The notes beneath the pieces are model-generated. The model was given only the letters and a program-made list of their open reading frames with translations, was not told where the DNA came from and did no database searches. From Robiginitalea sp. (lineage in GTDB: Bacteria; Bacteroidota; Bacteroidia; Flavobacteriales; Flavobacteriaceae), in assembly GCA_024642005.1 (NCBI GenBank), contig JAHECA010000027.1, positions 1-47,342 on the forward strand: a stretch of 47,342 nucleotides of DNA, given 5' to 3'. A program made the translations under genes and the position numbers. Below are positions 4,155 through 27,098 of the stretch, piece by piece (within the stretch, counting starts at the first letter, position 1; every line of letters begins with the position of its first letter).

Positions 4155-5021
4155 ATGAGGCAATTGAAAATTGTCAAGCAGGTGACAAACCGCGACTCCA
4201 AATCGCTTGACAAATACCTGCAGGATATCAGCAAAATAGACCTGATCACCGCCCATGAAGAAGTAGAACTCGCCCAGCGCATCAGAAAAGGAGACCAGTC
4301 AGCCCTGGAGAAACTGACCAAGGCCAACCTGCGCTTTGTGGTTTCTGTGGCCAAGCAGTATCAAAATCAGGGGCTTACCCTGCCCGATCTGATCAACGAA
4401 GGGAATGTAGGCCTGGTAAAGGCCGCCAAGCGTTTCGACGAGACCCGCGGTTTCAAATTCATATCCTATGCCGTCTGGTGGATTCGCCAATCTATTTTAC
4501 AGGCCCTGGCAGAGCAATCTCGGGTCGTGCGTCTGCCGCTGAACAAGATCGGTTCGATCAATAAAATCAAAAAAACCTTTTCATACCTGGAGCAGGCCCA
4601 TCAGCGCCCGCCTTCAGCCGAGGAAATTGCCGGGGAGCTCGATATGACCCTGAGCGAAGTGAAACAATCCATCAAGAATTCGGGCCGGCATGTGTCTATG
4701 GATGCCCCCCTCAAGGAAGGCGAAGACTCAAACCTGTATGACGTCTTGAGGAGCGGCGAATCGCCCCGTCCTGATAAAGGCCTGATGCAGCAGAGCCTGA
4801 ATACTGAAATAAACCGGGCGCTTGAAACCCTGTCGCCCAGGGAAGCCGATGTGATTAAACTCTATTACGGGATTGGCGACCAGCAATCGATGACCCTGGC
4901 CGAGATCGGCCAGACCTTCGACCTGACCCGCGAGCGGGTGCGCCAGATCCGCGAAAAGGCCATCCGGAAGCTGCGGCACCATTCGCGCAGCAAATTGCTA
5001 AAGACCTATCTCGGAGCATAA
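4155..5021 (+). CDS. rpoD: RNA polymerase primary sigma factor RpoD/SigA
   Basis: Housekeeping sigma factor of 288 residues, the short form typical of Bacteroidota, which lack the long region 1.1 and non-conserved insert of E. coli sigma-70. Region 1.2 starts at about residue 17 ([16 protein letters not shown]). Region 2 holds the [19 protein letters not shown] and [17 protein letters not shown] segments. Region 3 covers roughly 135-210. Region 4 with the helix-turn-helix, [18 protein letters not shown], ends the protein. The promoters of this phylum (TTTG and TAnnTTTG) reflect this sigma factor, and several such sites occur in the window. The gene stands alone between minus-strand neighbours and is followed at once by a strong terminator. 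Confidence 0.97.
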
Positions 5022-5048
5022 AAAAAAGCGGCCCTTGGGCCGCTTTTT
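5021..5048. terminator. Bidirectional intrinsic terminator
   Basis: The stem GCGGCC pairs with GGCCGC (5028-5043), with T5 after it on the plus strand and A7 before it, which reads as T7 on the minus strand. It overlaps the rpoD stop codon. It can also end the minus-strand transcript carrying the twin small genes, 27 bases beyond the stop of the second one. Confidence 0.9.
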
Positions 5049-5460: not shown

Positions 5461-6666
5461 CTAAAAACCGTACTGGTACCGGAGCCCGGCCTGGAAAACC
5501 CAGTAAAAGGAACCCGCTTCAAGGACGAATTCCTGCCGGCCCACCCCGAGCTGCGCCCTGTAACGGTTTCTCGCTGTGGCTCCTGTAAACTGATATTCCA
5601 GCTGCAATTGTTGCGACTCTACAAAAAGCAGGGTTTCGGCCAGCAATTCGGTTCCCGATCGCAGCTGCCTGATTTCAGGGCTGTATCCGAAAACTCCCCT
5701 GAGGCCCAGATAATGGAATTCATCCCTTAAGTACCTCCGCACCAGGAATGTGCCCGATAACCCTGGGCTCTTGTCTTCAAAAAGGCTTAAATAAGGCCGC
5801 AGGCTCAAGTAATAGTTGCCCCGGTAAAGCCCGTATGAGGCGGTCAGCAATTTTGCGGTGCTTTCCCTGAAATCGAGGTACCGCGCCCCCAGGGATATTT
5901 CATGCCCCCCCGAAAGGCTGGCGTACAATTCGGCCCCGGCCCTGTGGTTGGGATAAATGGAGGCTTCCGAAAAGCCGTAGTTCAGGTAACCGTGGAAAGT
6001 TTTGCTCAATACCGGATACAGATCAAGTTCGGCTTGCAGGCCCTGCGTATCAAAACGATTGCTGTAATTGAGCCGCGGCAGCATTTTTCCCAGCGGGGTG
6101 GTTCGCTGGTATTCCAGGGTGGTGTAATACATGGGGTCGTATCCCGTGTTAAAGACCTCCAGGTCATTGGTTAGCGACAAGAGATTATTCGCGGGCTTTT
6201 CAGCTTCGACCACCGGGGGTTCAACCGGGCGGTTCTCCTCTAAAATGGCCTGCCGCAAGGTCTCGACCTGCGTACCCGACCCCAGGTACAGCAGGGCTTT
6301 ATTGGCCAGCCCCAAAGCCAGAGACGGATTGCCCGCATAACGCTCATTCTGGATTGCCGCCACCCAGACCTCTTCCAACTCGCGCTTTTGTGAGGTAATG
6401 CGGTTGAAATGCAACCGTGCCTGGTCGTAGTCGCCGTCCCAACTGTAGGTTTTGGCCAGCAGTGTCTGCACATCGGTGTAATCCGGATACTCAGACAGAA
6501 TGCGCATCAGGGTGTCGCGGGCTTCTCGCCTGAAGCCATCGAAAGCCAGGTTTCGTGCCCGGTCAAAGGCCGCATCCGGATCGTAATGGGCGGCGTGCGG
6601 CTGAGCCCACAGGGAGGCCCACGATAGCAGGAGACCCAAAACAACTGTTATAACTGATCTTTTCAT
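5461..6666 (-). CDS. YaiO-family outer-membrane beta-barrel protein with TPR domain
   Basis: A 401-residue exported protein. A signal peptide covers 1-21 (hydrophobic VITVVLGLLLSWASLWA). TPR-like helices run about 31-140, a Pro/Glu-rich linker about 143-158, and alternating beta strands from 160 end in YQYGF, the terminal aromatic expected of outer-membrane barrels. The architecture of periplasmic TPR plus barrel recalls NfrA and PgaA-type polysaccharide exporters, so an export pore for the product of the upstream glycosyltransferase is the likely role (inference). The first TPR (ARNLAFDGFRREA, ILSEYPDYTD) resembles the C-terminal TPR of the gene just upstream. Its start overlaps the stop of that gene by 4 bases. 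Confidence 0.82.
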   Translation of the reverse strand: MKRSVITVVLGLLLSWASLWAQPHAAHYDPDAAFDRARNLAFDGFRREARDTLMRILSEYPDYTDVQTLLAKTYSWDGDYDQARLHFNRITSQKRELEEVWVAAIQNERYAGNPSLALGLANKALLYLGSGTQVETLRQAILEENRPVEPPVVEAEKPANNLLSLTNDLEVFNTGYDPMYYTTLEYQRTTPLGKMLPRLNYSNRFDTQGLQAELDLYPVLSKTFHGYLNYGFSEASIYPNHRAGAELYASLSGGHEISLGARYLDFRESTAKLLTASYGLYRGNYYLSLRPYLSLFEDKSPGLSGTFLVRRYLRDEFHYLGLRGVFGYSPEIRQLRSGTELLAETLLFVESQQLQLEYQFTGATARNRYRAQLGVGRQEFVLEAGSFYWVFQAGLRYQYGF

Positions 6667-9071
6667 TCCGGGGAGGTTTGAGTGGCCTGACTAATTGCAT
6701 ATTCCCGGACCTGGTGTGATAGCCTGACATCGTTATCAGAAAGGAGCCTCAGGGCCGAACGGGCCAATTTTTCACTGATTTCCCGATTCGATTTCAAATG
6801 GGTCTCCACAGCTGGTTTCAGGTACAGGGATTTCTGATCCTGGCCCGACCAGTAGTAAACATCCAACAAGGCCGAATAGCCGTCGGCATATACCGGATAT
6901 TTCTGAACCACCTGCTCCAGGAGTTCGGTGGCCTTATCGTAATTGGCCTGCCAGGCATAAATACGCCCCAACAGGATTTCGGCATCTACATGGGAGGGCA
7001 CCTCAGAGAGGATGAACCTGCATAGCAGGCCGGCCCTTTCATAATTCCCGTCCATGGCAAGTTGGCGCGCAGTTGTATAGGCATTGTCGATATCGGGCCC
7101 GTTGTAAACGCTGTGAACCCATACCATTTCCTTTTTGTTTGGTCTGGGGTACATCGTGCCATAAGGGGCTGCTTCGCCGGGCAAAAGCCTCCCCTTTTCC
7201 ACCGCATACCGGTTTAGCGCCCTGAAGCCTTTCAGCTGTTCTTTCAGGCTTTCCTTTTCTTCGGTGGGCAATGCGGTTACCTCCAGGTTGCCGCCTATCC
7301 CATACGCTTTGTTTCCCGATATTACCTTTGTTCCCACGATCAGTGTACGGAAGGAAGCAGCAACTTCATAGAGCGGGATCTGCTTACCTGGTTTGGAGGA
7401 TTGGGTGTAAATCCAGTCAGAACCCAGCCAGGACGCCTTATTTGGCAGGTCAAACCCGTATTGCCGACCCAGGCTGCCGAGCAGGGAAGGCGCAATGTCG
7501 AGATGGGAAGCCAGGGCATCGAGGGTTTGTTTTTGCCGGAGCATCGGGCTGTAGACCAGCAGCGGCACCTGATACGACTGCAACAGGCCGTTGGCCGCCA
7601 ATTCGGCAGGGTGATGCGTGCCCGTAAGTATAAAGACAGTACGGTGGAAACCAGACCTTCTCGAAAAAGCTTCGAAAAACCGTTGCAGCTGCCGGTCTGT
7701 GTATACCATAGCGGCCATTAAAGCCATGTTTTTACGAATAACCCGTGCTTCACGCGAACTGAACATGCCGGCCTCAAAGCGCTGTTCGGCCAGCCTGCTG
7801 TAGGTGTCAGCATCTGGGATAAGATAGGGCTCGGCGCTGCTCAGTGTCTGAAAGACATCGAAGCGGGGCACTGTTCCCGGGGAACGGGTTTTGAGGTAGC
7901 GGTCGAACAGGGCCTCATCAGGGTATCCGAGCGTTACCCCTGCACGGTCGGCATCTTGTGGCTGATAAGCCTCCCCAAACGACTTGCTGTCTGCAAGTTC
8001 GTCTACACGTTCTTCGAACAGCAACCGGTCCCAGCCGGCAAGGGAAGAATTGCCCCCGTACTGAAAACTGGTCCGATAACCGTTTTTCTTGAGGAGGGAA
8101 AACAGGGTCAGGCGTGCCGGGATTTCCGTTTCGGCTGTAAAGCCTGACCGGCCATAGGGCACCGAACCGGTAATCATGGGAAGGGCAGCTTTGCTTTCCC
8201 GCACGTTGCTCATAAAGTGATTCCAGTACAATCCCTGCCGGCTAAGGGAGTCAAGAAAGGGAGCGAAGGTTCGGAAGGCCGCCCCTTCGCCTAAAAAGTC
8301 GGAACTGAGGCCCTCGACTGCGATTAATACAATATGCGGGGGCTGGTCAGGCCAGTCGAGGTATTGCCCCAGGGCATCGCGCTGCTCCCAATTCTGGTAA
8401 AAAGGATAGGGTTCAGCCCCCTGATAAGTATCGGAGCTGGCCCAGGCCTGCAGGTATTCTTCGGCCATGTACTGGGTCTTGTTCAGGTTAACGGGTTTTT
8501 TTTCGGATAGCAGGGTTGCCAGAAAAAGGGAAAACAGGATAACCGTGAAAGGATACATGCCACTGAGCAACCGGTGGATGCGTTTGCTGAGCCGGTAGAA
8601 CAGGCGGAATGCCGAGCCGAGAACAATGGCAGACAGCAAGAGGAGCACCAACAGCTGAGTGCCCGTAAAGACTTGTGAAAGCAGTGTACCGGCCTCCGTA
8701 CCCACTACCTCGTACCTGTCGATGAAATATTCGGTCAGCACCAGTTCCCAAAGCAGCCCCCCCATTAGCATGCCAACGGCTGCCCGGAATCCCCAGCCCG
8801 GTTTTCGCGATTCCAGAAAAGTGAAAAGGAAGGATAGCGGCAGCGCCAGCAGGGCCGTGAACCCCAGGTGGTGCATACCGAGCAGCAAGAGGTTCTTGTT
8901 CAAAAAGCCGTCGAGCACCCCTTGTTCAAAAAGGCGCACCTGCTGGTAAAGTGCCAGCAGCAGCAAACAGCCGTAAAATGCCAGAACCAGCCTGATAAAG
9001 TCTTTCAGGTTGCGTTTCCCGATGCGGGCCTGTATGAAAGCTAACCACTTCATGGCGTCAGGCTTTTGCAA
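6663..9071 (-). CDS. LtaS-like membrane sulfatase-fold protein with C-terminal TPR
   Basis: An 802-residue protein. Several N-terminal membrane helices (about 25-45, 60-85, 98-115, 135-158, 172-190) precede a periplasmic alkaline-phosphatase/sulfatase-fold domain (about 245-560) and a TPR tail (660-750). Relatives (LtaS, OpgB, EptA-like) move phosphoglycerol or phosphoethanolamine onto glycans, so decoration of an exported polysaccharide is the likely job. Metal and nucleophile positions seem to be Glu253 in VEGLS and Ser293 in RESKAALP. The late motif, normally GDH or ADH, reads LTGTHH at 482-487, so the expected Asp is Thr485. A second start, ATG at 9053, would remove the 14-base overlap with the glycosyltransferase. 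It overlaps the YaiO-like gene by 4 bases. Confidence 0.8.
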   Translation of the reverse strand: MQKPDAMKWLAFIQARIGKRNLKDFIRLVLAFYGCLLLLALYQQVRLFEQGVLDGFLNKNLLLLGMHHLGFTALLALPLSFLFTFLESRKPGWGFRAAVGMLMGGLLWELVLTEYFIDRYEVVGTEAGTLLSQVFTGTQLLVLLLLSAIVLGSAFRLFYRLSKRIHRLLSGMYPFTVILFSLFLATLLSEKKPVNLNKTQYMAEEYLQAWASSDTYQGAEPYPFYQNWEQRDALGQYLDWPDQPPHIVLIAVEGLSSDFLGEGAAFRTFAPFLDSLSRQGLYWNHFMSNVRESKAALPMITGSVPYGRSGFTAETEIPARLTLFSLLKKNGYRTSFQYGGNSSLAGWDRLLFEERVDELADSKSFGEAYQPQDADRAGVTLGYPDEALFDRYLKTRSPGTVPRFDVFQTLSSAEPYLIPDADTYSRLAEQRFEAGMFSSREARVIRKNMALMAAMVYTDRQLQRFFEAFSRRSGFHRTVFILTGTHHPAELAANGLLQSYQVPLLVYSPMLRQKQTLDALASHLDIAPSLLGSLGRQYGFDLPNKASWLGSDWIYTQSSKPGKQIPLYEVAASFRTLIVGTKVISGNKAYGIGGNLEVTALPTEEKESLKEQLKGFRALNRYAVEKGRLLPGEAAPYGTMYPRPNKKEMVWVHSVYNGPDIDNAYTTARQLAMDGNYERAGLLCRFILSEVPSHVDAEILLGRIYAWQANYDKATELLEQVVQKYPVYADGYSALLDVYYWSGQDQKSLYLKPAVETHLKSNREISEKLARSALRLLSDNDVRLSHQVREYAISQATQTSPE

Positions 9072-10485
9072 ATCCTTTACGAACCTGGGAGCCCCAGCCC
9101 GTATTGATGTTGAACAATTTTTTATAGTTGCCCCTGACGGCCGACCATACGACCAGCGGATGGAAGGTAAAGGGTTCTATTATGGCGCAGAACAGCAGGA
9201 TCAGTATGTCGCGGGTGCGCGTATACTGGTTATAGGACCACACGTCCCAAAACAGGGCGTAGACCGAAAACATAATGGCAAAGCAATAGACCAAAGCTGT
9301 GATGGCTACAAAAAAGTCCCAGTCCAGAATGCCCAGGTACAGAAATAACAAGATGGAGAAAAACCCCATGAACTCCAGGAGGGGCGCCAGCCATTCGTAA
9401 AAGAACCAGTACGGGTAGCTCAGGAGCCCGAGCCGGCCGAACCTGGGGTTGAAAAACATGTCGCGGTGGCGGTACAGGGTTTCCAGATTGCCCCTGGACC
9501 AGCGGTCGCGCTGGTTTACCAGTACTTTCAGATTTTCCGGTACCTCGGTCCAGCAAAGGGGGTCCGGTATGTATTCAACCGTATAGGGAATGCCACGCTC
9601 GTGCATGTAGCGCCGCATCCTGAAGACGATTTCCATGTCTTCCCCAACTGTACCCGTGTCGTATCCGCCCACGCGCAAGGCTATTTCCCGGTCGAAGAAC
9701 CCAAAGGCGCCTGAAATGATCAGCAGGCTGTCGATGCGCCCCCAGGCCATCCTGCCCAGCAGGAAGGAGCGGGTGTACTCCAGCAGCTGGAAACGGGCCA
9801 ACCAGTTCTTGGGCAGCCGGATCTCTTCGAGGGTGCCCCCGTCTATTTTACAGGAATTGGCAACCCGGATTACCCCGCCTACAGCGATAACGCGCTTGCT
9901 GGAGCGCTGGTAAAACGCCCGAACCACATGCAACAAAGCATCGGGCAGCAGCAGGCAATCCACGTCGATGCAGCCCACGTATTTGTTTTCTGAAAGGCGT
10001 ATACCCGTGTTCAATGCATCAGACTTGCCCCCGTTTTCCTTGTCGATTACCGTAAGCTTCGAAAAGGAGCGCTGACGCGATTTGTAGATGCCCCTGATGG
10101 GTTTGCAGGGCCAGTTCGGGTCCATTTCCCGGTCAATTCTTTCGAGGTCGTACGAATCGATCATTTTCAGGAGCGTATCGTCCCTGCTCCCATCGTTTAC
10201 AACCATTACCTCGTAATTCACATACCGCAAAGACAACAGGGAACGGATGTTCTCCACGATAGTCAGCCCCTCGTTAAAGGCCGGGGCAATAATGGTAATG
10301 CCCGGCGCAAGTGGCGAGGCCATAATCCGGGAAATATCCCCTACCTGGCTTTTATTCCGGTAATGGATGGAATTGCGCGAGGAGAGGTAGGCCATAATTG
10401 CAAACCCAGTAAACAATACGGCTGTAAACGTCAAAAAGACGATGTTGATATACTCCAGTAATATGTCGAGCAGCCCGTTACCCAT
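9058..10485 (-). CDS. Processive family-2 glycosyltransferase, membrane-bound
   Basis: A 475-residue inner-membrane polysaccharide synthase of the cellulose/PgaC/NfrB type. One N-terminal membrane helix (12-34), a cytoplasmic GT-A domain and about three C-terminal helices (358-385, 390-412, 428-448) are seen. The GT2 signatures are complete: NDGS (97-100), ENGGKSDALNTG (150-161), the metal-binding DVD (174-176), the catalytic-base GED (281-283) and QRDRW (325-329), the last marking processive enzymes. The sugar cannot be told from sequence. It overlaps the HEAT-repeat gene upstream by 8 bases and the sulfatase-like gene downstream by 14, so the three are translationally coupled. Intracellular control may come from the HEAT protein. 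Confidence 0.9.
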   Translation of the reverse strand: MGNGLLDILLEYINIVFLTFTAVLFTGFAIMAYLSSRNSIHYRNKSQVGDISRIMASPLAPGITIIAPAFNEGLTIVENIRSLLSLRYVNYEVMVVNDGSRDDTLLKMIDSYDLERIDREMDPNWPCKPIRGIYKSRQRSFSKLTVIDKENGGKSDALNTGIRLSENKYVGCIDVDCLLLPDALLHVVRAFYQRSSKRVIAVGGVIRVANSCKIDGGTLEEIRLPKNWLARFQLLEYTRSFLLGRMAWGRIDSLLIISGAFGFFDREIALRVGGYDTGTVGEDMEIVFRMRRYMHERGIPYTVEYIPDPLCWTEVPENLKVLVNQRDRWSRGNLETLYRHRDMFFNPRFGRLGLLSYPYWFFYEWLAPLLEFMGFFSILLFLYLGILDWDFFVAITALVYCFAIMFSVYALFWDVWSYNQYTRTRDILILLFCAIIEPFTFHPLVVWSAVRGNYKKLFNINTGWGSQVRKGFAKA

Positions 10486-12676
10486 GCGAATGCCTTTTGT
10501 GTTTGGCTGCCCAGCGCAACCAACGGCTGCCCATTTGCCGAGCGGGGGGGGCTGCCTGGTTTACAACCTGGGAGTCGGTCGAATTGGGGTGTCGGATAAA
10601 ATCAAGCTCGAAACCAATAACGTCCAGGGTTGTTTCCTCCTCTTTGGTTATTTCCCGCTGCGGCTGCGGAGCTGCATGATCCAACCCTAGTTTTCTGCCC
10701 AGGCTTTCTATGGCCTGTGAAACCTTCAGGGCGATCCGGGGATCTTCCAGCAATTCGTGCAGGAATTCCCATTCCTTCTCCTCCCCGACTTCGACAAGCT
10801 GTTCGAGCAGGATAAGTTTGGAGTCTGTATCTAGGTCGCGGAACAGTTCCCGGAAAATAGAAAAACGCTGCTGCGAAGTATCCCGGAAATCGGGAATCTG
10901 CTTAAAATAGGGCTCCCCGGCCGGCAAAACTGCGGGCTGGGGCATCTCATCCAATTCGAAAGCCGGTTCCCAGAAATAAACGGGCTGGTCCGGAAGACCG
11001 CCGGGGTTTTCTCCAGGCGGGCCGGTTGACGGCGTACCAGGTCCCGCACCGGAAACGGGAGCGCCCGACACAATTAAGGGCAGGAAATCTTCCTTGAGGT
11101 CGGCTCTCAAATCAACAATAGGGGTAGTCTCTGAAGCCTTGGCCGTCTTTTCACGATAGGCCCCGGGAGCCCCGTATTCGGCCACAGCTTGGTGCGCTTC
11201 GGAGTTTTCTTCGGCAGGTTCAGGCCCTGTAACAGCTTCGGTTATAATGGGCAGGAAATCGAGGGGCAGGATTTCATGGGGCTCCCCTTCCGTCTCGAGT
11301 TCGGAAAGAATGTCGTCCAGTTCCTCCAGGAAACAGACCTCAAAAACAGCTTCATCCTCCTCCCATTCGTCTGTGTCGAAATCGTATTGATTCCGGTCTT
11401 CAACAGTCGTTTCGGCTTCAGCGTCAAGGGCTTTCTCCACCTTGCTTTCTTCGACCTCTTCCCCAAAGTCTGGTTCCCAAAACAGGGCTTCAGGAGCTTT
11501 AGATTGATCGTCTGCAACAGGTTCCTCTACCGGGAGTTCCAGGTCAGGATAGGGCGCCGGCTCTTTTTCGGTGAATTCCTGATTTATATCCTCTTGCGCA
11601 GCGGTTTCCATAAACGCATCGGGCAGGGCGCTGTCGGGTTTGAGCAGGTTCATAACCGACCTTGCCTTGGAGCGGATAATGAAATTGCGGGAGCGGGAAG
11701 CCTGATCTTCCAAAAAGCCGAGTTCCGATTCAGACCCAATCAAGCCTATGGTGTCGAGGATAAGCAACTTTAATTCTTCATTCACCCCTGGAAACAAGGC
11801 AATTATCGGCGCGAGGGCCGAACGGAAGCGGAATTCCCGGATGCATTCCAGGGCAGCCCCTTTGATTCTCTGGTTCTGGTGCCCCAGCAATTTTAAAAGC
11901 GCCATTTCGGCATCATTCTGCCGGTAATGCCTGATGAGCCTGAGGGAAAATAACACCACATCCCGGTTTTCCGAGGTGAGCCAAACCCTGAACCGGGGCG
12001 GATTGTAGTCTTCCCGCTGCATAAGGATTTCCAGGAGCTTGAGTTGTTGCCATTCCGAAATGCTGTAATGGGCCGTGTCCAGGAAATACGCAATGCCTTC
12101 TTCACGCAACATTACCGTGGCGAGCTGGGCTTGTTTCCTGATTACGCTACGGCGGTCGTTGATAAACTTGCGGATGAATGGATAGGCTTTTTCGACCTGC
12201 ATATCAGTGAGCTCCAAAATACCTTTGGAAATGCGTTCCCACCTATAACTTTCTAGCTTTCGAAAGGAATCCAGGTGCAGGTCAAGGTCCTGGAAGAGCT
12301 GGAAGAGGCGATCGCGGGCGTCGCCCGACACATCCATGCGCAGGTCCATGAGCACTTCCGACAGCACCTCCCGGTTCATGGGCACCTTGAGCAATTCCCT
12401 GATCTCGATTTTCATCGCGATATAGGTGTCGCGATCTTCGTTTTCCGAATCGTGCTGGTAGAACAAAAAGTTGCTGATCATCGGGGCCAGGTCGCGCTTT
12501 TTGAGCCGTATGGCCTCGCGTTTGGCTGAGATGCGGTTGCGCATCCAAAACGTCAGCAACAGGTACACTCCACCCAACAAAGCAAAGAACCCGGCCAGCA
12601 TCCAGACCGGGTCTGTTTGAAATTGCCGGGCCAGCAGCAATCCTGTAATACCGGATGTCAGGGGGAAGACGTTCAA
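10478..12676 (-). CDS. HEAT-repeat protein with membrane anchor and acidic disordered region
   Basis: A 732-residue protein. One membrane helix lies at about 24-44 with a positively charged cytoplasmic side after it. Helical HEAT-like repeats run about 60-345, then a long acidic low-complexity segment (350-590), a final HEAT-like helical block (600-665) and a basic tail ending KHKRHSHG. The acidic segment repeats two short motifs: FWEP-x-F at 399-404 and 568-573, and DFLP(I/L)I at 473-478 and 530-535. These may be docking motifs. HEAT scaffolds bind other proteins, and its place between the response regulator and the glycosyltransferase suggests it relays the signal to the synthase (inference). 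It starts 2 bases after the response regulator stop. Confidence 0.78.
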   Translation of the reverse strand: MNVFPLTSGITGLLLARQFQTDPVWMLAGFFALLGGVYLLLTFWMRNRISAKREAIRLKKRDLAPMISNFLFYQHDSENEDRDTYIAMKIEIRELLKVPMNREVLSEVLMDLRMDVSGDARDRLFQLFQDLDLHLDSFRKLESYRWERISKGILELTDMQVEKAYPFIRKFINDRRSVIRKQAQLATVMLREEGIAYFLDTAHYSISEWQQLKLLEILMQREDYNPPRFRVWLTSENRDVVLFSLRLIRHYRQNDAEMALLKLLGHQNQRIKGAALECIREFRFRSALAPIIALFPGVNEELKLLILDTIGLIGSESELGFLEDQASRSRNFIIRSKARSVMNLLKPDSALPDAFMETAAQEDINQEFTEKEPAPYPDLELPVEEPVADDQSKAPEALFWEPDFGEEVEESKVEKALDAEAETTVEDRNQYDFDTDEWEEDEAVFEVCFLEELDDILSELETEGEPHEILPLDFLPIITEAVTGPEPAEENSEAHQAVAEYGAPGAYREKTAKASETTPIVDLRADLKEDFLPLIVSGAPVSGAGPGTPSTGPPGENPGGLPDQPVYFWEPAFELDEMPQPAVLPAGEPYFKQIPDFRDTSQQRFSIFRELFRDLDTDSKLILLEQLVEVGEEKEWEFLHELLEDPRIALKVSQAIESLGRKLGLDHAAPQPQREITKEEETTLDVIGFELDFIRHPNSTDSQVVNQAAPPARQMGSRWLRWAAKHKRHSHG

Positions 12677-12678
12677 GA

Positions 12679-13050
12679 TTATCGGGTTCTCAACAATTTG
12701 CTTATGCGTATCAGCAGCTCAGACGGGCTAACAGGCTTCGAAATAAAGTCGTCGGCCCCCATTTCGAAGGCATTCAGAACGTTCGATTCGTTTCCAGCTG
12801 TGGAAATGATCACTACAGGTACCTTGCTCCCCAGCTCGTTGCGGAGGTAGTCTACCAGTTCGATCCCTGAGAAATAGGGCATCATAATGTCACTCACAAT
12901 AATGTCGGGCATCTGCTGGCCCACATATTCTTTTACCTGACGGCCATCGGCCGCATGGTCTACCCGGTATCCTGCCTTCTCGAGACGGAATTTCAACAGG
13001 GAAGCGAGCATGATGTCGTCTTCTGCCAGTAACAGGTAGGTTTCAGCCAC
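12679..13050 (-). CDS. Single-domain response regulator
   Basis: A CheY-like receiver of 123 residues with no output domain. The acidic pair is in LLLAEDD (residues 10-12), the phosphorylated Asp in VSDIMMP (Asp54), and the conserved Lys in ISKPVSP (Lys105). I place the start at GTG 13050, which overlaps the kinase stop by 8 bases. A longer reading to 13095 would overlap the kinase by 53 bases and add a basic, non-conserved extension. With no DNA-binding domain it must act by protein contact, most likely with the HEAT protein or glycosyltransferase downstream, receiving phosphate from the Hpt domain of the kinase (inference). Confidence 0.9.
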   Translation of the reverse strand: MAETYLLLAEDDIMLASLLKFRLEKAGYRVDHAADGRQVKEYVGQQMPDIIVSDIMMPYFSGIELVDYLRNELGSKVPVVIISTAGNESNVLNAFEMGADDFISKPVSPSELLIRISKLLRTR

Positions 13051-14803
13051 GTGTATTGTTTTTTTTAACCTCCTCGAGGGCCTGGTTGAGGGCACTTTCT
13101 AAATCCGGATAGGATTTTATCAATTCGCGGTAAATCTGGCGCATGCGCTCCACGCCTGTCTGCCTTTGGTTCAGCTCCCGGAGTTCCTTAACCTTGCTGA
13201 GCCAGGTCTGTACTTCCATCAGTTTCAGGCCGGCATTTACCTTATGGGCACTAGCCTCAATCTGCTCATAGTCGAGCAACGTGAGGTGGGTCTTTAGCGC
13301 TCCCAGGAATTCCAGCAGGTTGGCCCTGAAGAGCCTGGTCATTTCTTCAAGCATCTCGATATCGCCCATACATTCCTTCCATAGGCCGGAAAGATTCAGG
13401 ATGCCATTCATCGGGGCATCATCCGGTTCTTCGGGGCAGGTTTCGTATGCATGCCCGGGCAAGGGGTTCAGCTGCCTGAGCACCTTCTCCAGCAGTTCCT
13501 CCGGGCAAAAGGGTTTCAGCAACACATCGTTGATGCCGGACCTTCGCACCTGCTGGCTGTCTTCGGCCGAAAGGTCGGCTGTAACCGCCACGATGGGTAT
13601 TTTTGAGATGGCTGCATTGTCGTGGTTTCGGATTCGGACGCTGGCCTGGTAGCCGTCCATGCCCGGCATGCGCAGGTCTGTCAAAACAAGATCCACGCGT
13701 TCCTCTGAGAGCATGCCGATGCCATAAATGGCTTTCTCACTTACAAGTACGCGGCAGCCCCACCCTTTCAGGCGGGTTGACAGAAGTTTCTGATTCAGGA
13801 GGTTGTCTTCAATAATAAGGATGGTTTTGCCTGCCAGTGGACGCTCCAGGCTTTCAGGGGCAGGATCAGTCATAGTGGTTTGCCCCGGTGTTTGATGGAA
13901 AGGGATGACGAATCGAAAGGTTGATCCGGCCCCTTCCCGGCTTTCGGCAGAAATACTGCCGCCCAGTCGATCGAGCGATTTTTTGACAATGCTCAGGCCC
14001 AGGCCGATGCCCTGCTGGTTTTCGGAAGCGCCTGTTCCCTTCCGGAAGGCGTCAAAGACGAAGGGCAGATCAGCGGCTGAAATGCCGGGCCCTGTATCGC
14101 GAACTGCTCCGTGCAACAGACAGGCGCCGTCCTGAAATTCAGGCCAGATACGCAGCTCGATGCGCCCCTGCTCCACAAACTTGATGGCATTGCCGAGCAG
14201 GTTCATCAAGATTTGAGAAAACCGCGAGGGGTCACCCACAAGCTGCTTCGGCATTTGCGGGTCAAGGTCGAGTTCAAAAGACACGCTGTCTGAGACAATG
14301 AGCGAGCCGCACAAATAGCTGACCTGTTCAATAAGCTGCCCGGGGTTAAAGACGAGGCTCCTGACAGGTTCGTGCTCCGATTGAAGCCGGGCGTATTCCA
14401 GCAGTTCGCCAACCAGCAAGAGCATTGAATCGGCTGCGGCACCAATAGCCTGCACCTGTTCGGTTTGTTGTTCGTTAAGCTTCCCCTGACTGAGGAACTG
14501 CGAGAGTTGGGAAATGGCATGAAGTGGGGTGCGCAGCTCGTGGCTTACCGTGGCCAGAAGTTCGGCAACTGTTTCATCGGCCGGCCCGCCAGTACCCATT
14601 TCGGCTGTTTCACTGGAGCCTGGCTCGAGCTGACGGCTATTGGCCGGCGCCCATAACCTGTCTTCCAGGCGTGTACGAAACTGGTTGAAGGACATCTTGA
14701 GGGCCCGGGCTTCTGAGACGGTAAGCTGGTCGAAAGAAAATCCCTCTAGGGCGTTTTGCAGGTCGGCAATTTGGTCGAGAAGGTCTCGGGAGCGCGTTGG
14801 CAT
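13043..14803 (-). CDS. Soluble hybrid histidine kinase with receiver and Hpt domains
   Basis: A 586-residue phosphorelay protein without membrane segments or a recognisable sensor domain. The N-terminal 75 residues are probably helical. The HisKA motif SHELRTPLH places the phosphorylated residue at His88. The ATPase shows NLLGNAIKF (N box, 201-209), DTGPGI (236-241) and GIGLGLS (265-271). The receiver has Asp376 in LTDLRMPG and Lys430. The C-terminal Hpt motif ASAHKVNAGLK gives His520, where HKLKG is more usual. Together with the separate receiver just downstream, this forms a complete His-Asp-His-Asp relay. As first gene of the operon it probably sets activity of the polysaccharide machinery in response to a cytoplasmic or partner-derived cue. 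Confidence 0.92.
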   Translation of the reverse strand: MPTRSRDLLDQIADLQNALEGFSFDQLTVSEARALKMSFNQFRTRLEDRLWAPANSRQLEPGSSETAEMGTGGPADETVAELLATVSHELRTPLHAISQLSQFLSQGKLNEQQTEQVQAIGAAADSMLLLVGELLEYARLQSEHEPVRSLVFNPGQLIEQVSYLCGSLIVSDSVSFELDLDPQMPKQLVGDPSRFSQILMNLLGNAIKFVEQGRIELRIWPEFQDGACLLHGAVRDTGPGISAADLPFVFDAFRKGTGASENQQGIGLGLSIVKKSLDRLGGSISAESREGAGSTFRFVIPFHQTPGQTTMTDPAPESLERPLAGKTILIIEDNLLNQKLLSTRLKGWGCRVLVSEKAIYGIGMLSEERVDLVLTDLRMPGMDGYQASVRIRNHDNAAISKIPIVAVTADLSAEDSQQVRRSGINDVLLKPFCPEELLEKVLRQLNPLPGHAYETCPEEPDDAPMNGILNLSGLWKECMGDIEMLEEMTRLFRANLLEFLGALKTHLTLLDYEQIEASAHKVNAGLKLMEVQTWLSKVKELRELNQRQTGVERMRQIYRELIKSYPDLESALNQALEEVKKNNTRG

Positions 14804-14823
14804 GGTATTGGTTTCGGTTGTCT

Positions 14824-14837
14824 GGTAAGATTTTACC
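14824..14837. promoter_or_regulatory. Short palindrome between kinase and dipeptidase genes
   Basis: GGTAA-GATT-TTACC, 21 bases before the kinase start in the 141-base divergent spacer. It could be an operator or chance. No convincing promoter was found for either divergent gene. Confidence 0.25.
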
Positions 14838-14944
14838 GTTTAATGGATTAAAAATCCTTATTCAGGCCGGGGCCGACAATAAATTGTTCCCTATCTTCCC
14901 CAAACCGTTGTAAAACCCCATAATTTGTAGGTAACACGTATACC

Positions 14945-21424: not shown

Positions 21425-22849
21425 TTACTCCCAACCGCCCCCGAGGGCGCGGTACAATTCGACGAGCGCGCGCATTTGACCGTACTGGGCGTCTACCAGG
21501 CGCAACTCGGTGCTCAGGGCATTTTGCCGGGCCGTTAATACCTCGAGGTAATTGGCCAGGCCATTGTTGAGCAGTTCTTCCGAGAAATCTTCGGCCAACG
21601 ATAAGGCTTGCAGTTCATTCCGGCGCGCAATGGCAATGTCGGACTGGGCCTGCAGCTCATACAGGGCATCTGAAACTTCCCTTCCGGCAATGAGCATGGT
21701 TTTCTGGAAATCCAGGGCTGCCTGTTGCTGGCGTGCTTCTGCAACTCTCACCTGGGTTTTGAGCCGTTTTCCGTTGATCAGGGGCTGAGAAAGGGAGCCG
21801 AGCAACTGGGAAAAAAGGGAACTGGCGCTAAGCCAGTTTTCCAACTGCAGGCTCTGAAACCCGCCAGTGCCCCCCAGACTGAGGGTGGGATATAAACTGG
21901 CCCGGGCAACATTGGTAAGTTCGAAGGCATTAACCAGGGCGTATTCCGATTGCATCACATCAGGTCGGTTTGCCAACAGCAGGGATGGAATACCGGTGCT
22001 CAATGCCGGATTGAGATCCTGGGAATCCAGTTTGCCCCTTTCAATTTCATGGGGGCCGTCACCCAGCAAGATACAAAAGCTGTTTTCGAGTAACCTGATG
22101 TTCTTTCGCAGATCAATCAAAATGATCTCGGTGGAATACACCTGCGCCTCGGCTCCTTTGACGGCAACCTCGGTAAGCTGCCCTGCCGATTTCAGCGCCT
22201 GAATGGCCTCCAGGCTCCTCCGGCGCGAGTCTAAGGTCTGTTCCGCAATGGAAGCCTGTTTATCGAGGGCCAGAAGCTGGTAATAAGTAGTGGCCAACGA
22301 AGCGATTATCCGGGTTTGGATGGCGCGTTGGGCGGCCGTGCTTTGCAGGAAGGAAGCCTGGGCAGCCCGCTTGTTGCTTCTGATTTTACCCCAGATGTCG
22401 GCTTCCCAGGAGAGCGACCCGGAGAGCTGAAATTGTTCAATTGGGTCTGAAAACAAACTTCCGAACTGGCTGTTGGGCGAATTCTTGGTCCGCGTAAAAC
22501 CGGCTGTTGCCGACAGGGTTGGGTAATATCCGGCCTTGCCCTGCTGCAGGTATTGTTCGGTAATCGCTATGCTTTGAAGGGCTATTCGTATGTCAAGATT
22601 GTTTTCCAGGCCATGTCGGATATGGCCCTGCAGGAGTGTATCCCGAAGCAGATCTGTCCAGGGGAGGGTTGCCATGGAAACACTGTCTGTCTGCAGGCTG
22701 TCGGAGCGAAAAGCACCGGGGGTTTCCAGTTCGGGACGGGTATAGTTCCGGGCTGTGAAACACGATTGAAAAAGCAGGGCCAGGGCGCTGAGTACAAGGG
22801 CAACAGACCTCCCCGGTCGCGGATAGCCGATGTTGGTTTTCCAGATCAT
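21425..22849 (-). CDS. Outer-membrane efflux lipoprotein (TolC/OprM/NodT family)
   Basis: Outer-membrane channel of the tripartite pump, 474 residues. The lipobox LLFQSC places acylation at Cys30. After it comes the typical NYTRPELETPGAFR segment, then the duplicated long-helix repeats with LLALDKQASIAEQTLDSRR and DVMQSEYALVNAFELTNVARASLYPTLSLGGTGG, and a C-terminal ALYELQAQ to YRALGGGWE end. Trimers span the outer membrane and the periplasm. Its ATG overlaps the stop of the RND permease by 4 bases. It is the last gene of the pump operon and converges on cysM. Confidence 0.93.
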   Translation of the reverse strand: MIWKTNIGYPRPGRSVALVLSALALLFQSCFTARNYTRPELETPGAFRSDSLQTDSVSMATLPWTDLLRDTLLQGHIRHGLENNLDIRIALQSIAITEQYLQQGKAGYYPTLSATAGFTRTKNSPNSQFGSLFSDPIEQFQLSGSLSWEADIWGKIRSNKRAAQASFLQSTAAQRAIQTRIIASLATTYYQLLALDKQASIAEQTLDSRRRSLEAIQALKSAGQLTEVAVKGAEAQVYSTEIILIDLRKNIRLLENSFCILLGDGPHEIERGKLDSQDLNPALSTGIPSLLLANRPDVMQSEYALVNAFELTNVARASLYPTLSLGGTGGFQSLQLENWLSASSLFSQLLGSLSQPLINGKRLKTQVRVAEARQQQAALDFQKTMLIAGREVSDALYELQAQSDIAIARRNELQALSLAEDFSEELLNNGLANYLEVLTARQNALSTELRLVDAQYGQMRALVELYRALGGGWE

Positions 22850-25800
22850 GGCTCCTGGGGGTGTTGCCGGTTAGACCTGGCTTCCGGGGCACCTGCAACC
22901 CGCTCCTGAAGCCCCTGGAAAACTACGAACAGGACCGGAACCACAAAGACGCCCAAAACGGTCCCAATCAACATGCCCCCTACAGCACTTAACCCGATGG
23001 ACTGGTTGCCGACGGCGCCGATCCCCGAAGAAAGGGCCAGGGGCAGCAGGCCAAAAATAAAGGCAAAGGAAGTCATCAGGATCGGGCGCAGCCGCACCTC
23101 GGCTCCCTGTACGGCGGCCTGCCACAGGGAAAGGCCCGCCCGCCTCCGCTGGATGGCGAACTCGACAATCAGGATGGCGTTCTTGGCGAGCAGCCCGATA
23201 AGCATGATCAGGGCGATCTGAAAGTAGATGTTGTTGTCCAGCCCTTTGATGTTGACAAAAAGTATAGCCCCGGCCAGGCCCATGGGCAGCGACAGGAGCA
23301 CGGCCAGAGGCAGAATGTAGCTCTCGTACTGTGCGCTGAGCAGGAAATACACAAAAACCAGGCTCAACATGAAGATGAGCAGGGTCTCGCTCCCTGCGGC
23401 CGTCTCCTCGCGGGTCAGGCCCGAATATTCGTAGGAATAACCAAGGGGCAACACCCGGTTAGCCTCTGCTTCGATCGCCTGTATTGCATCACCGGTGCTG
23501 TAGCCCGGGTTTGGAACACCGGTTATCCTCACGGCGCTAAGCAGGTTAAACCGCTCGACCACCTCGGGCCCGTAAATCTTTTTGAGATTAATAAATTCAC
23601 TCACTGCCACCGATTGACCGAGGGCGTTGCGGACAAAAATCTGGTTCAGGGAATTCTCATCGGCCCGGTCTTCGGGTTTGGCTTGAATCATCACCCGGTA
23701 CTGCTTGCCGAATTTGTTGAAATCAGTGGCGTAGATCCCCCCGTAGTAACCTTGCAGGGCTCCGAACAGGTCGGTTGTGGAAAACCCTGCCATCTTGGCC
23801 TTTTCCAAATCGAGTTCGAGCTCATATTGCGGGAAATTCGGGTCGAATTGGGCAATGGCATACTGGATTTCGGGCCTGGCATTCAGTGCAGCCAAAAAGT
23901 CGTTTTTGACCTGGTTAATACCCTGCCAATCTTCAGTTTCGGTAGTTTGCATTTGCAGCTCGAAGCCCGAACTCAACCCAAAGCCATTGATGCTCGGGGG
24001 GGTGAAGTAGATAATCTGAGCATCTTTGAAAGCCGCCGTTTTGGCAAAGAGCTTTTTAATGGTGGCGTCTACAGAAAGTGAGTCGGCCTGCCGCTCAGAC
24101 CAGTCTTTCAGTTTCATGATTGAAAAGGCGTACGATCCTCCCGAAACTCGGTTCAACAGGGCAAAGCCCGCCACACTCATCCGCGCCTGGATCACGTCGG
24201 TGGCTTCGTAAATCGAATCGAGCGCCCTGATGGTTTCTCCGGTTTTCTCGAGGGTAGTGCCCGGAGGCATGCTCACATTGGCAAAAATGACTCCCCGGTC
24301 TTCATTGGGAACAAACCCGCTGGGGGTCACGCGGAAAAGGTATACGGTTAGCCCCGTAAAGAAAACCAATCCTGCCAGGGTTATCCATTTGCGCCTGAGC
24401 AGGCCCTGCACTACACGGGTATACCGCTGTGTAGTGGCCCGGAAGCCGGCATTGAACGCATCAAAGAAACGATTTGCAAAGCCTTTTTTCACCCGGTCGT
24501 GGACGTGGGGCTTTAGAAAAAGGGCAGCGAGGGCCGGGCTTAGCGTAAGGGCGTTAACCGCAGAGATCAAGATGGAAACCGCCAGGGTAATGCCGAATTG
24601 CTGGTAAAAAACCCCTGATGAGCCTCTGATGAATGAAACCGGTATAAATACGGAAGCCATTACCAGGGTGATGGAAATAATCGCGCCGGTTATTTCGCTC
24701 ATGGCGCTTTTGGATGCTTCCCGGGCAGAGGTCGCCCCGGCCTCGAGTTTGGCGTGTACTGCTTCGACCACTACAATGGCATCGTCTACTACGATGCCTA
24801 TTGCCAGGATCATGGCAAAGAGCGTGAGCATATTGATGGAATACCCGAACAATTCCAGGAAGAAGAAGGTGCCCACGATGGCCACCGGAACGGCAATGGC
24901 CGGAATCAGGGTGCTCCGCAGATCCTGCAGGAACAGGAAAACAACCAGGAAAACCAGGAGGAAGGCCTCGATGAGTGTCTTGACCACGTGCTCAATTGAA
25001 GCATCGAGGAATTCCCTGACGTTGAAAGGGATTACGTAGTCTATTCCTTTAGGGAAACTGGCCTTGCTGACTTCCAGGATGTTTTCGACCTGGTCGATAA
25101 TCTCCTTGGCGTTGGACCCGGCTGTCTGATATACGCCAACAGCTACTCCCGGGTAGCCCATTCCTGTATTTTTCCGGACATAGCTAAAAGCGCCTAACTC
25201 AATTTCGGCCACATCTTTCAACCTCAGAAACCCGCCGTCCGGATTCGATTTCAAAATTATGTTTTCGTACTCCTCTACCTCTGACAGCCGGCCCTTGTAC
25301 TTTAGCACATATTCATATACTCCCTGTGCATTTTCTCCGATCTTGCCAGTGGCCGCCTCCCGGTTTTGTTCTGACAGGGCCGCCTGAATATCGCCGGGCA
25401 CCAGGTTGTAGGCCGCCATTTTTTCAGGGTCTATCCAGATGCGCATGGCATAATCCATGGAGCCGAAGACATTCACGTTGCCAACGCCGTTTACCCGCTG
25501 CAGGCGGGGCACCAGGTTTATCCGGGCATAGTTTTCCACGAAGGTGGCATCGTAGTCTGGGTTGGTAGAAAAGATGGAGAAGAACAACAGGGAGCCGTTT
25601 TGTGATTTACGGGTGGTAACCCCTGTCTGAACCACCTCGCGGGGCAACAGGCTGGTGGCACGTGCCACACGGTTTTGCACGTTCACCGCGGCAATGTCGG
25701 GGTCGACTCCCAACTCGAAGAATACATTGATGCTGGCAGAGCCGTCATTGCTGGCCGAGGAAGTCATATAGGTCATCCCCTCTACCCCATTGATCTGCTC

Positions 25801-25998
25801 TTCCAGCGGAACCACCACGCTTTTCAATACCGTTACGGCATTGGCCCCGTTAAAGTTGGCCGTGACCTGCACAGTGGGAGGTGCTATTTCGGGGTATTGC
25901 TCAACCGGCAGGGTGGCCAGCCCCAATAGCCCCAGAATAAAAATGAGGATGGAAATTACCGTGGAGAGTACCGGTCTTTCGATGAATTTCTGAAACAT
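22846..25998 (-). CDS. RND efflux permease, HAE1/AcrB family
   Basis: Inner-membrane proton-driven multidrug exporter of 1050 residues, the normal AcrB length, with twelve membrane helices and two large periplasmic loops. The proton-relay Asp pair is Asp405-Asp406 in AIGIVVDDAIVVVEAV, and the relay Lys is in LLAKNAILIVEFA. The N-terminus MFQKFIERPVLSTVISI is the HAE1 type and there are no signs of the heavy-metal CusA group. The order regulator, adaptor, permease, channel is complete. The start is 26 bases after the adaptor. Substrates cannot be predicted. Confidence 0.96.
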   Translation of the reverse strand: MFQKFIERPVLSTVISILIFILGLLGLATLPVEQYPEIAPPTVQVTANFNGANAVTVLKSVVVPLEEQINGVEGMTYMTSSASNDGSASINVFFELGVDPDIAAVNVQNRVARATSLLPREVVQTGVTTRKSQNGSLLFFSIFSTNPDYDATFVENYARINLVPRLQRVNGVGNVNVFGSMDYAMRIWIDPEKMAAYNLVPGDIQAALSEQNREAATGKIGENAQGVYEYVLKYKGRLSEVEEYENIILKSNPDGGFLRLKDVAEIELGAFSYVRKNTGMGYPGVAVGVYQTAGSNAKEIIDQVENILEVSKASFPKGIDYVIPFNVREFLDASIEHVVKTLIEAFLLVFLVVFLFLQDLRSTLIPAIAVPVAIVGTFFFLELFGYSINMLTLFAMILAIGIVVDDAIVVVEAVHAKLEAGATSAREASKSAMSEITGAIISITLVMASVFIPVSFIRGSSGVFYQQFGITLAVSILISAVNALTLSPALAALFLKPHVHDRVKKGFANRFFDAFNAGFRATTQRYTRVVQGLLRRKWITLAGLVFFTGLTVYLFRVTPSGFVPNEDRGVIFANVSMPPGTTLEKTGETIRALDSIYEATDVIQARMSVAGFALLNRVSGGSYAFSIMKLKDWSERQADSLSVDATIKKLFAKTAAFKDAQIIYFTPPSINGFGLSSGFELQMQTTETEDWQGINQVKNDFLAALNARPEIQYAIAQFDPNFPQYELELDLEKAKMAGFSTTDLFGALQGYYGGIYATDFNKFGKQYRVMIQAKPEDRADENSLNQIFVRNALGQSVAVSEFINLKKIYGPEVVERFNLLSAVRITGVPNPGYSTGDAIQAIEAEANRVLPLGYSYEYSGLTREETAAGSETLLIFMLSLVFVYFLLSAQYESYILPLAVLLSLPMGLAGAILFVNIKGLDNNIYFQIALIMLIGLLAKNAILIVEFAIQRRRAGLSLWQAAVQGAEVRLRPILMTSFAFIFGLLPLALSSGIGAVGNQSIGLSAVGGMLIGTVLGVFVVPVLFVVFQGLQERVAGAPEARSNRQHPQEP

Positions 25999-26024
25999 TG
26001 CGACTGCCTGTTAACTATTCCAAT

Positions 26025-27098
26025 TCAGTTTCTGACCGGTTCGATGGCCTGCCCGTCCTTGAGCTTGGAAACGCCTTCCGTGACAATGGTCACACCGGGT
26101 TCCAGGCCAGTGGCCACAAGGTATTCGGTGGTCGTCTGAGCAGCTATCTGAATGGGCCTGGCATTAACGGTCTGGTCGGCCTCAAGAACATATACCATTT
26201 TATGGCCCTGCAGGTCCACGGTTGCCGTCATGGGTACTACCAGCACATTTTGGTAGCTGGTGGGGATGCTGATCCGCCCGCTGCTTCCCGAGCTGAGCAG
26301 GTGTTCGGTGTTCGGAAAATCAGCCCTCAGACTAATGTTGCCGGTTGTGCGATCCACAATGTTGTTAATCACCGCAATGCGCCCGGGGTGCGGATAGGGG
26401 GCTCCATTGACCATGATGAGTTCGACCTCGGTGTCTTTAGCCCCGGAAGCTGCCGTATCCGATTGCGCATTTTGAAGCTTCCACTGCAGCATTTGCTTTT
26501 CATTCATTGAAAAGTAGGCCCTGATTTCGTTGATATCCGATACGACGGTCATCGGCAGGGCAATGGTATTGCTCACCAGCGCCCCTTCCTTGTAGGGGAT
26601 GTTCCCGGCATAGCCGTCTAACGGGCTGGTCAGGTTGGCATAGCCAATATCGGCCACGAGGCTTTCGTAATTGCTTTTGGCCTGCTGCAGACGTGCCCGG
26701 GCCGTTTCAAGTTGCACCTGGCTGATGATCTCTTTTTCAACCAGGGGCACCAGTTTATCGACCTCTACCTGGGCTACATTCATTGCGGCCCGGGCAGCTT
26801 CGGCATCCTGGGTCAGGCTGGCGGTTTCCAGGCGGAAGAGGGGCTGCCCTTTTTTGACCGGCTGGCCCTCTTCTATATAGATCTTATCGATAAAACCGCT
26901 CACCTTCGGCCTGATTTCTACATATTGACGGCCTTCCAGGGTAGCGGCAAAAGTCTGGTATACGGTTCGATCTGCGGGTTGCAGGGCCTCTACCTTCAAG
27001 GTCGGCACAGCCTGGGCGGGCCGCTGGGGCTGCTTGTCGCTGCAGGCTCCGAGAAGGCTCATCGCCCCGGCTATCAGATTGCGTTGGATGGTGTTCAT
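26025..27098 (-). CDS. RND efflux periplasmic adaptor (AcrA/MexA family), lipoprotein
   Basis: Membrane-fusion protein of 357 residues joining permease and channel. The lipobox LLGAC gives Cys19. The biotinyl-lipoyl half-motifs surround a hairpin: GFIDKIYIEEGQPVKKGQPL before it and ANLTSPLDGYAGNIPYKEGALV after it. The beta-barrel and membrane-proximal parts follow, ending SKLKDGQAIEPV. It sits 31 bases after the regulator gene and 26 before the permease. Confidence 0.94.
   Translation of the reverse strand: MNTIQRNLIAGAMSLLGACSDKQPQRPAQAVPTLKVEALQPADRTVYQTFAATLEGRQYVEIRPKVSGFIDKIYIEEGQPVKKGQPLFRLETASLTQDAEAARAAMNVAQVEVDKLVPLVEKEIISQVQLETARARLQQAKSNYESLVADIGYANLTSPLDGYAGNIPYKEGALVSNTIALPMTVVSDINEIRAYFSMNEKQMLQWKLQNAQSDTAASGAKDTEVELIMVNGAPYPHPGRIAVINNIVDRTTGNISLRADFPNTEHLLSSGSSGRISIPTSYQNVLVVPMTATVDLQGHKMVYVLEADQTVNARPIQIAAQTTTEYLVATGLEPGVTIVTEGVSKLKDGQAIEPVRN

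Follow-up and report, generated by a model that had tools for sequence, protein, structure and literature searches.

Cellulose and poly-N-acetylglucosamine (PNAG) synthases are commonly activated by cyclic di-GMP (c-di-GMP). In this study, we undertook a computational analysis of six genes in a 47,342-nucleotide stretch of Robiginitalea sp. DNA (contig JAHECA010000027.1; the whole stretch is hereafter the window) that encode a hybrid histidine kinase, a lone receiver, a HEAT-repeat protein, a glycosyltransferase family 2 (GT2) synthase, an LtaS-like membrane protein and a YaiO-family outer-membrane barrel. Our results modestly favor the view that these genes specify a synthase-dependent exopolysaccharide secretion system of Bacteroidota which is switched by a phosphorelay and not by c-di-GMP. 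If so, with a conserved receiver-HEAT-GT2 module the phylum would have a switch of its own, in contrast to c-di-GMP, and single mutants could be used to test how marine and soil Bacteroidota control their matrix. No description of this gene set was found among the open-literature matches listed (subscription papers lay outside the scope), in agreement with an earlier sequence-only reading of this DNA that had considered the system likely to be little described.

That reading drew parallels to NfrAB and PgaABCD and missed the one to Escherichia coli BcsABC with BcsG (type II Bcs), which combines a GT2 synthase, a synthase-bound membrane transferase and a TPR-barrel exporter, BcsC. In the accessible portion of PMC11470070, BcsG is described as a membrane phosphoethanolamine transferase that is docked on the synthase via a 5-helix domain and that affects BcsA integrity. 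The Bcs system is controlled by c-di-GMP, whereas the locus studied here has a receiver and a HEAT protein instead, with no PilZ match in the GT2 protein or elsewhere in its own genome, and its partner protein is LtaS-like and, in the window, degenerate. E. coli NfrBA-YbcH (NGR polysaccharide) likewise has a GT2 and a TPR/barrel outer-membrane protein, with NfrB being activated by c-di-GMP according to the accessible portion of PMC8669469. NfrB has a C-terminal MshEN c-di-GMP domain, unlike the 475-aa protein here, on which only GT2-type families were matched. Among NCBIfam models, PgaC/IcaA matches the GT2 protein best, and structure 4y25, which we take to be PgaA, ranks 16 among the Foldseek matches of the barrel. 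However, the GT2 protein falls far below the family cut-off (139 bits versus 422.3), and no PgaABCD-type deacetylase domain was identified by Pfam in the six proteins, to which that search was confined. The LtaS-like protein shares its fold with LtaS and PbgA (YejM), and with PbgA its membrane part as well; PbgA also is without catalytic residues, as stated in the accessible portion of PMC4973235. The differences are a C-terminal TPR, an operon shared with a GT2 and an active-site pair that 71 of 95 relatives keep.

In the mechanism we propose, phosphate from the hybrid kinase, or from other kinases that supply the same HPt, would reach the lone receiver by way of the HPt, and the receiver would dock on the membrane-anchored HEAT protein. 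The latter would sit on the GT2 and activate or position the synthase, which, judging from its family, may polymerize and extrude a beta-linked polymer, possibly of N-acetylhexosamine. A periplasmic LtaS-like subunit would work beside the synthase. In most lineages having this subunit, the polymer probably receives a phospho-group from it, and in the window's lineage a degenerate LtaS-like scaffold may hand the polymer to the TPR/YaiO outer-membrane barrel.

Conservation of the gene set across Bacteroidota

Matches to the GT2 protein at E <= 1e-20 were found in 34 of the 99 genomes in the sample of relatives, its own genome included. An alignment of 15 GT2 sequences matched 114 of 395 phylum genomes at E <= 1e-40, the weakest matches (~1e-41 to 1e-49; open reading frames (ORFs) often of ~1,130–1,180 aa) resembling another glycosyltransferase family. 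This alignment recovered related loci that the LtaS-like protein, as sole query, did not. Gene neighborhoods were sampled at 32 related places (order sample), at 80 named loci kept from 553 confirmed ones, which are biased to close kin (named sample), and at 60 of ~106 places at E <= 1e-100 hand-picked for spread (phylum sample). Removal of duplicates and fragments left 167 distinct GT2 loci including the window, and the counts that follow use the other 166 (order n = 31, named n = 77, phylum n = 58), some being depressed by contig ends and gene picking.

A HEAT gene immediately precedes the GT2 gene in 161 of the 166 loci (order 30/31, named 76/77, phylum 55/58). The HEAT profile behind this count was derived from the same upstream genes that it scored, with Pfam as an independent check on part of them: in the phylum sample, 16 genes in the HEAT position had stayed unlabelled, and the 10 of these put to Pfam all matched HEAT_2, nine over the cut-off. 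There is a lone receiver within five genes of the GT2 gene in 136 loci (23/31, 70/77, 43/58), a YaiO TPR-barrel in 129 (24/31, 67/77, 38/58) and an LtaS-like gene in 97 (18/31, 61/77, 18/58). The YaiO barrel and LtaS-like genes are frequent but not universal partners, and HEAT, receiver, barrel and LtaS-like genes are all present at 15/31 loci of the order sample, 52/77 of the named sample and 14/58 of the phylum sample.

The spacing between the HEAT and GT2 genes has a median of -4 (162 loci) and lies between -50 and +20 in 136 of 162 loci; chance clustering was rejected on this and on the conserved gene order. Rarity of the set in other genomes had been named beforehand as the finding that would count against the system, and the families recur together in distinct loci of other genomes. 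The idea of one unit extending from a relay to the outer membrane was likewise supported. Since a flanking sigma-factor gene is common to 51 loci and a dipeptidase-like gene to 47, the locus appears to be an inherited chromosomal site in the window's clade.

The phosphorelay and the HEAT-repeat protein

No hydrophobic segment was detected in the kinase by a crude hydropathy scan, and no sensor domain was found. The sequence-only reading described it as a hybrid kinase with an Hpt domain. Pfam bore out HisKA, HATPase_c and Response_reg, but the HPt region did not reach significance (12.2 bits, E 0.23) and is called from an aligned histidine motif and because it is homologous to the HPt encoded by a 244-aa gene at locus L069, which matches PF01627 (E 8.8e-7) and belongs to the same gene cluster. 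The HisKA histidine, receiver aspartate and HPt histidine are aligned in the kinase, as is the terminal receiver aspartate in the lone receiver, whose D, D, K residues are kept in 129/134 aligned sequences (duplicates included).

Conservation is weaker for the kinase than for the lone receiver: among 173 loci (duplicates included), 88 have a kinase resembling the window's within five genes upstream and 134 have a lone receiver, with tblastn also locating the receiver at L032 and L033. The HisKA motif is altered or missing in several kinases (e.g., L097, L108, L221). At 13 loci there are HPt-only genes near the receiver, seven of them on the same strand in the kinase's place and six beside the receiver, five of the latter divergent; the five HPt-type genes put to Pfam all match Hpt over the cut-off.

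The HPt histidine and the lone receiver were compared in 57 kinase rows, less four duplicates (L064, L079, L081, L227), a split kinase (L037) and two other kinases (L179, L191), with receiver absence tested at the locus. Of the 50 rows remaining, a lone receiver gene is present in 48, each of which retains the HPt histidine, whereas L044 and L045 have neither. The remnant in the same-genus genome G004 is a third such case, the HPt histidine being replaced in 3/3 loci without a lone receiver (joint loss, Fisher p 4.8e-5); because the rows are related, the losses may represent only two events. This pattern would fit, indirectly, a relay in which the HPt passes phosphate to the lone receiver. One of the 48, L080 from Maribacter litopenaei (5835–14909), keeps its HPt histidine and has broken frames in the receiver, LtaS-like and barrel genes; it is a complete-genome record, and these are either real decay or sequencing error.

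The G004 locus is a natural deletion and a remnant of the operon. It occupies the same chromosomal site (L235, 10722–12685) and retains a 470-aa kinase without a receiver domain, with arginine in place of the HPt histidine, and a HEAT fragment. The region of the site gave no receiver, GT2, LtaS-like or barrel match, and the G004 genome no GT2 match at E <= 1e-20. With regard to c-di-GMP, no GGDEF hit and no PilZ hit (PilZ at E <= 0.001) was obtained in the Robiginitalea genome of the window, in scans whose controls were positive in 8/14 and 5/14 genomes, respectively, and 57 of 60 relatives, the window's genome included, had no GGDEF match.

By hydropathy and composition, the HEAT protein has one N-terminal hydrophobic segment, a HEAT region, an acidic proline-rich stretch (residues 355–600 are 27% D/E and 12% P) and a C-terminal block. 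The protein is 625–1187 aa in the window's clade (57 members), and the median length of the 102 others is 364 aa; the extra length comes from the acidic stretch and C-terminal block, part of which persists in the G004 remnant. HEAT solenoids are often scaffolds, and this, like the long acidic extension, would suit an alternative in which the receiver and HEAT protein localize the machine or act elsewhere and do not switch synthase activity. We regard that alternative as unlikely given the position of the HEAT gene directly before the GT2 gene, usually touching or overlapping it.

The synthase, its LtaS-like partner and the barrel

GT2 residues D98, D174, D176, E282, D283 and Q325-R326-x-R328-W329 are invariant in 15 members, among them the processive QxxRW motif. 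In 17 distinct proteins the GT2 is fused to the LtaS-like protein (one, L121, ends at a contig end), which suggests that the two work side by side, an arrangement that can be likened to BcsA with BcsG. The fusions, and the presence of LtaS enzymes among the nearest solved folds of the partner, are also what might be expected if the GT2 made a short glycolipid or cell-envelope glycan (e.g., an anchor for a phosphoglycerol-type polymer) and not a secreted exopolysaccharide. This appears distinctly unlikely, as the best NCBIfam model is PgaC/IcaA, albeit below its cut-off, the processive motif is present and a TPR-barrel partner occurs at 129/166 loci.

Proteins with DUF4838 were identified at 10 loci (L061, L120, L130, L180, L186, L187, L218, L223, L225, L228), in eight of which the gene is second after the GT2 gene; all five put to Pfam were assigned to DUF4838, one with a NAGLU_N match below the cut-off. 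Six of the nine loci with DUF4838 within five genes of the GT2 gene have no LtaS-like gene, and it is possible that the DUF4838 protein is an alternative accessory in its place. Together with the PgaC-like score, these proteins give a weak hint that the polymer may be an N-acetylhexosamine. A GT2 of the same family at L191 (8078–10666) has a C-terminal extension of ~380 aa without a Pfam match; a SPOR-like tail was considered for it and was not borne out by Pfam. FpgA of F. psychrophilum, compared by description only from the accessible portion of PMC4293000, was set aside as a member of the same family due to its different context (FP1637, like WbhW). In addition, a ~390-aa protein recurs near GT2 or barrel genes at 16 loci outside the window's clade (L048, L114, L124, L126, L131, L139, L141, L173, L175, L178, L179, L185, L188, L189, L208, L232), six members of which were put to Pfam with no significant match.

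The LtaS-like protein has N-terminal membrane helices, an alkaline-phosphatase-type domain and a C-terminal TPR. Its model (pLDDT 89.1, 46 sequences) matched 3lxq and LtaS and LtaP domains by Foldseek (4uor and 2w5r among the matches) and, with the membrane part, PbgA 6xlp; a profile match to 3lxq (6.6e-33) agrees with an LtaS-type fold. In the family profile, GDH and HxPF motifs align with those of S. aureus LtaS. The window protein has T485 in place of the GDH aspartate (LtaS D475, which we take to have an active-site role) and A413 in place of the HxPF histidine (LtaS H416), and it lacks the LtaS active-site residues to that extent, with H486 (LtaS H476), Ser293, Glu253, His523 and Asp525 remaining. 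T300, H476, E255 and H416 are among the metal/substrate residues of LtaS given in the accessible portion of PMC4973235.

Of 95 complete distinct sequences, 71 retain the GDH aspartate together with the HxPF histidine and 24, the window's among them, lack the two, with none having lost only one (L121, cut at a contig end, and L086, L103 and L132, with gaps, were set aside). At L044, L045, L090 (Kriegella) and L100 (Sediminicola), the catalytic domain is deleted and the membrane and TPR parts are kept. When mapped on a GT2 tree of 71 rows, the LtaS-like states require seven changes and the domain deletions fall in three places, although the tree is unrooted with long branches meeting and these counts give no direction. 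Pairs matched at 75–80% GT2 identity (72 intact, 130 degenerate; L121 in neither this comparison nor the tree) had a mean catalytic-domain identity of 0.729 when intact and 0.416 when degenerate. The corresponding values are 0.685 and 0.403 for the membrane part, 0.619 and 0.484 for the TPR, 0.631 and 0.487 for the barrel and 0.471 and 0.425 for the HEAT protein. These lower identities indicate that constraint is relaxed across the LtaS-like protein and the barrel, most in the catalytic and membrane parts.

The frame is nonetheless full length in 23 of 24 distinct degenerate loci (L080 is split), and the degenerate pair L070/L072 has a ratio of nonsynonymous to synonymous substitution rates (dN/dS) of 0.06 at a dS of 1.01, which together make a plain pseudogene unlikely. 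Intact pairs have values of 0.02–0.03 where measurable. Evidence for selection on the degenerate protein comes from that one pair with usable dS, since dS was saturated (2.99) for L102/L104, which also gave 0.06, and the other five degenerate pairs tried had an infinite dS in the catalytic domain.

A transferase or hydrolase whose metal site is altered but which is still active in the window, modifying the polymer here too, would fit the low dN/dS of L070/L072, and Ser293 could be its nucleophile among the residues that remain. We consider this improbable, as the aspartate and histidine were lost together without an intermediate, the catalytic domain has diverged at matched GT2 identity and four loci keep the rest of the protein without it. 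Modification of the polymer in this organism was therefore rejected as the default. The sequence-only reading had placed periplasmic modification within the pathway, a step not supported here because two active-site residues are lost and the domain is deleted in two same-genus genomes. A second possibility is that the LtaS-like protein has no role left in the clade and is in slow decay, with the synthase, HEAT protein and barrel sufficing. Identity reduced over the whole protein, domain deletions in three places of the tree and absence of the gene from many members elsewhere are in its favor, but the full-length frames, the dN/dS of L070/L072 and the survival of membrane and TPR parts after domain deletion leave us doubtful of it. 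The window's LtaS-like protein is probably a scaffold, as judged from its sequence and those of its relatives.

The barrel protein has a hydrophobic start and exceeds the YaiO cut-offs (PF19413, 188.8 bits versus 23.9; TIGR04390, 187.1 versus 32). Its model (pLDDT 91.4, pTM 0.62) shows TPR helices and 14 strands, and Foldseek placed BcsC at ranks 1, 2 and 14, PelBC at rank 3 and 4y25, labelled polysaccharide outer membrane secretin in the output, at rank 16, with TM-scores of ~0.35. The modeled barrel thus offers a hint of a polysaccharide exporter, and the prediction of a TPR-barrel at the outer-membrane exit held in that its nearest matches are export-like, though at weak TM-scores.

Several observations weigh against a secretion system switched in this manner. 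The same-genus genomes G001 and G005 keep HEAT and GT2 genes at the locus without a lone receiver, so the receiver is not always needed there. Three of the 60 relatives have a GGDEF match, of which one is over the cut-off, and one of the weak matches is in G005, which is without the receiver. No HEAT-GT2 or receiver-HEAT fusion was seen in the loci examined, the six-gene unit contains no sugar-nucleotide gene, and 35/58 phylum-sample loci have neither an LtaS-like gene nor DUF4838 nearby. Ranks 4–13 for the barrel went to ordinary porins, whose TM-scores are similar or higher, and because of this and the TM-score of ~0.35 the ranking may reflect a TPR-plus-barrel layout. Finally, the relaxation of constraint in the degenerate clade extends to the membrane part, TPR and barrel, and this could reflect slow decay just as readily as a new role.

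A fuller version of our proposal is correspondingly tentative, and we put it at somewhat less than an even chance. It holds that allosteric switching of a processive GT2 is done not by c-di-GMP but by the phosphorylated lone receiver via the HEAT scaffold, and that the LtaS-like enzyme lost catalysis within one flavobacterial clade (the whole domain in three places) and is now a pure periplasmic scaffold, in a widespread and unnamed Bacteroidota machine. The series from intact transferase to degenerate domain to deleted domain would represent a natural experiment on the non-catalytic role of a synthase-bound modifying subunit, a question that arises for BcsG too, whose effect on BcsA integrity is described in the accessible portion of PMC11470070.

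Layout and boundaries of the operon

All six ORFs are present on the minus strand (14803–5461), tightly packed and at the position the sequence-only reading had described (Table 1). The five junctions are as it had given them: overlaps of 8 bases between kinase and receiver (receiver start GTG 13050; an alternative in-frame GTG upstream at 13095 would give 138 aa), 8 bases between HEAT and GT2 genes (10478–10485) and 4 bases between LtaS-like and barrel genes (6663–6666), a 2-base gap between the receiver and the HEAT gene (start TTG 12676), and a 14-base overlap of GT2 and LtaS-like genes, the last of these depending on TTG 9071 as the start. ATG 9053, 18 bases further on, would leave a 4-base gap, to which the median gap of +6 in relatives (72 loci) is closer.

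Table 1. Features of the operon and its downstream boundary in the window
Feature	Coordinates	Strand	Basis
Hybrid histidine kinase, 586 aa	13043..14803	-	HisKA, HATPase_c, Response_reg (Pfam); C-terminal HPt-like region
Lone receiver, 123 aa from GTG 13050	12679..13050	-	Response_reg 6.3e-27 (Pfam)
HEAT-repeat protein, 732 aa	10478..12676	-	HEAT_2 3.6e-8 (Pfam)
Processive-type GT2 synthase, 475 aa	9058..10485	-	GT2 Pfam families
LtaS-like membrane protein	6663..9071	-	Sulfatase 5.5e-21 and TPR (Pfam)
YaiO-family outer-membrane protein	5461..6666	-	PF19413 1.1e-55, TIGR04390 4.7e-55, TPR
Perfect inverted repeat flanked by A and T runs, terminator-like	5023..5048	.	Consensus scan, which does not show function; between the convergent operon and sigma-factor gene

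A divergent gene at 14945 marks one side of the operon, and on the other lies a convergent sigma-factor gene that ends at 5021. Between 4900 and 15100 there was no excess of promoter-like sites (2 versus a mean of 6.3 in shuffles) or of terminator-like sites (13 versus 13.2), and scans of the window gave no Rfam match and no tRNA. Elsewhere in the window are a 674-aa protein (41051–43075) with no Pfam match at E <= 0.001 and an RND efflux set (21425–27098) composed of OEP, an AcrB-type pump and an HlyD-type adaptor, as identified by Pfam.

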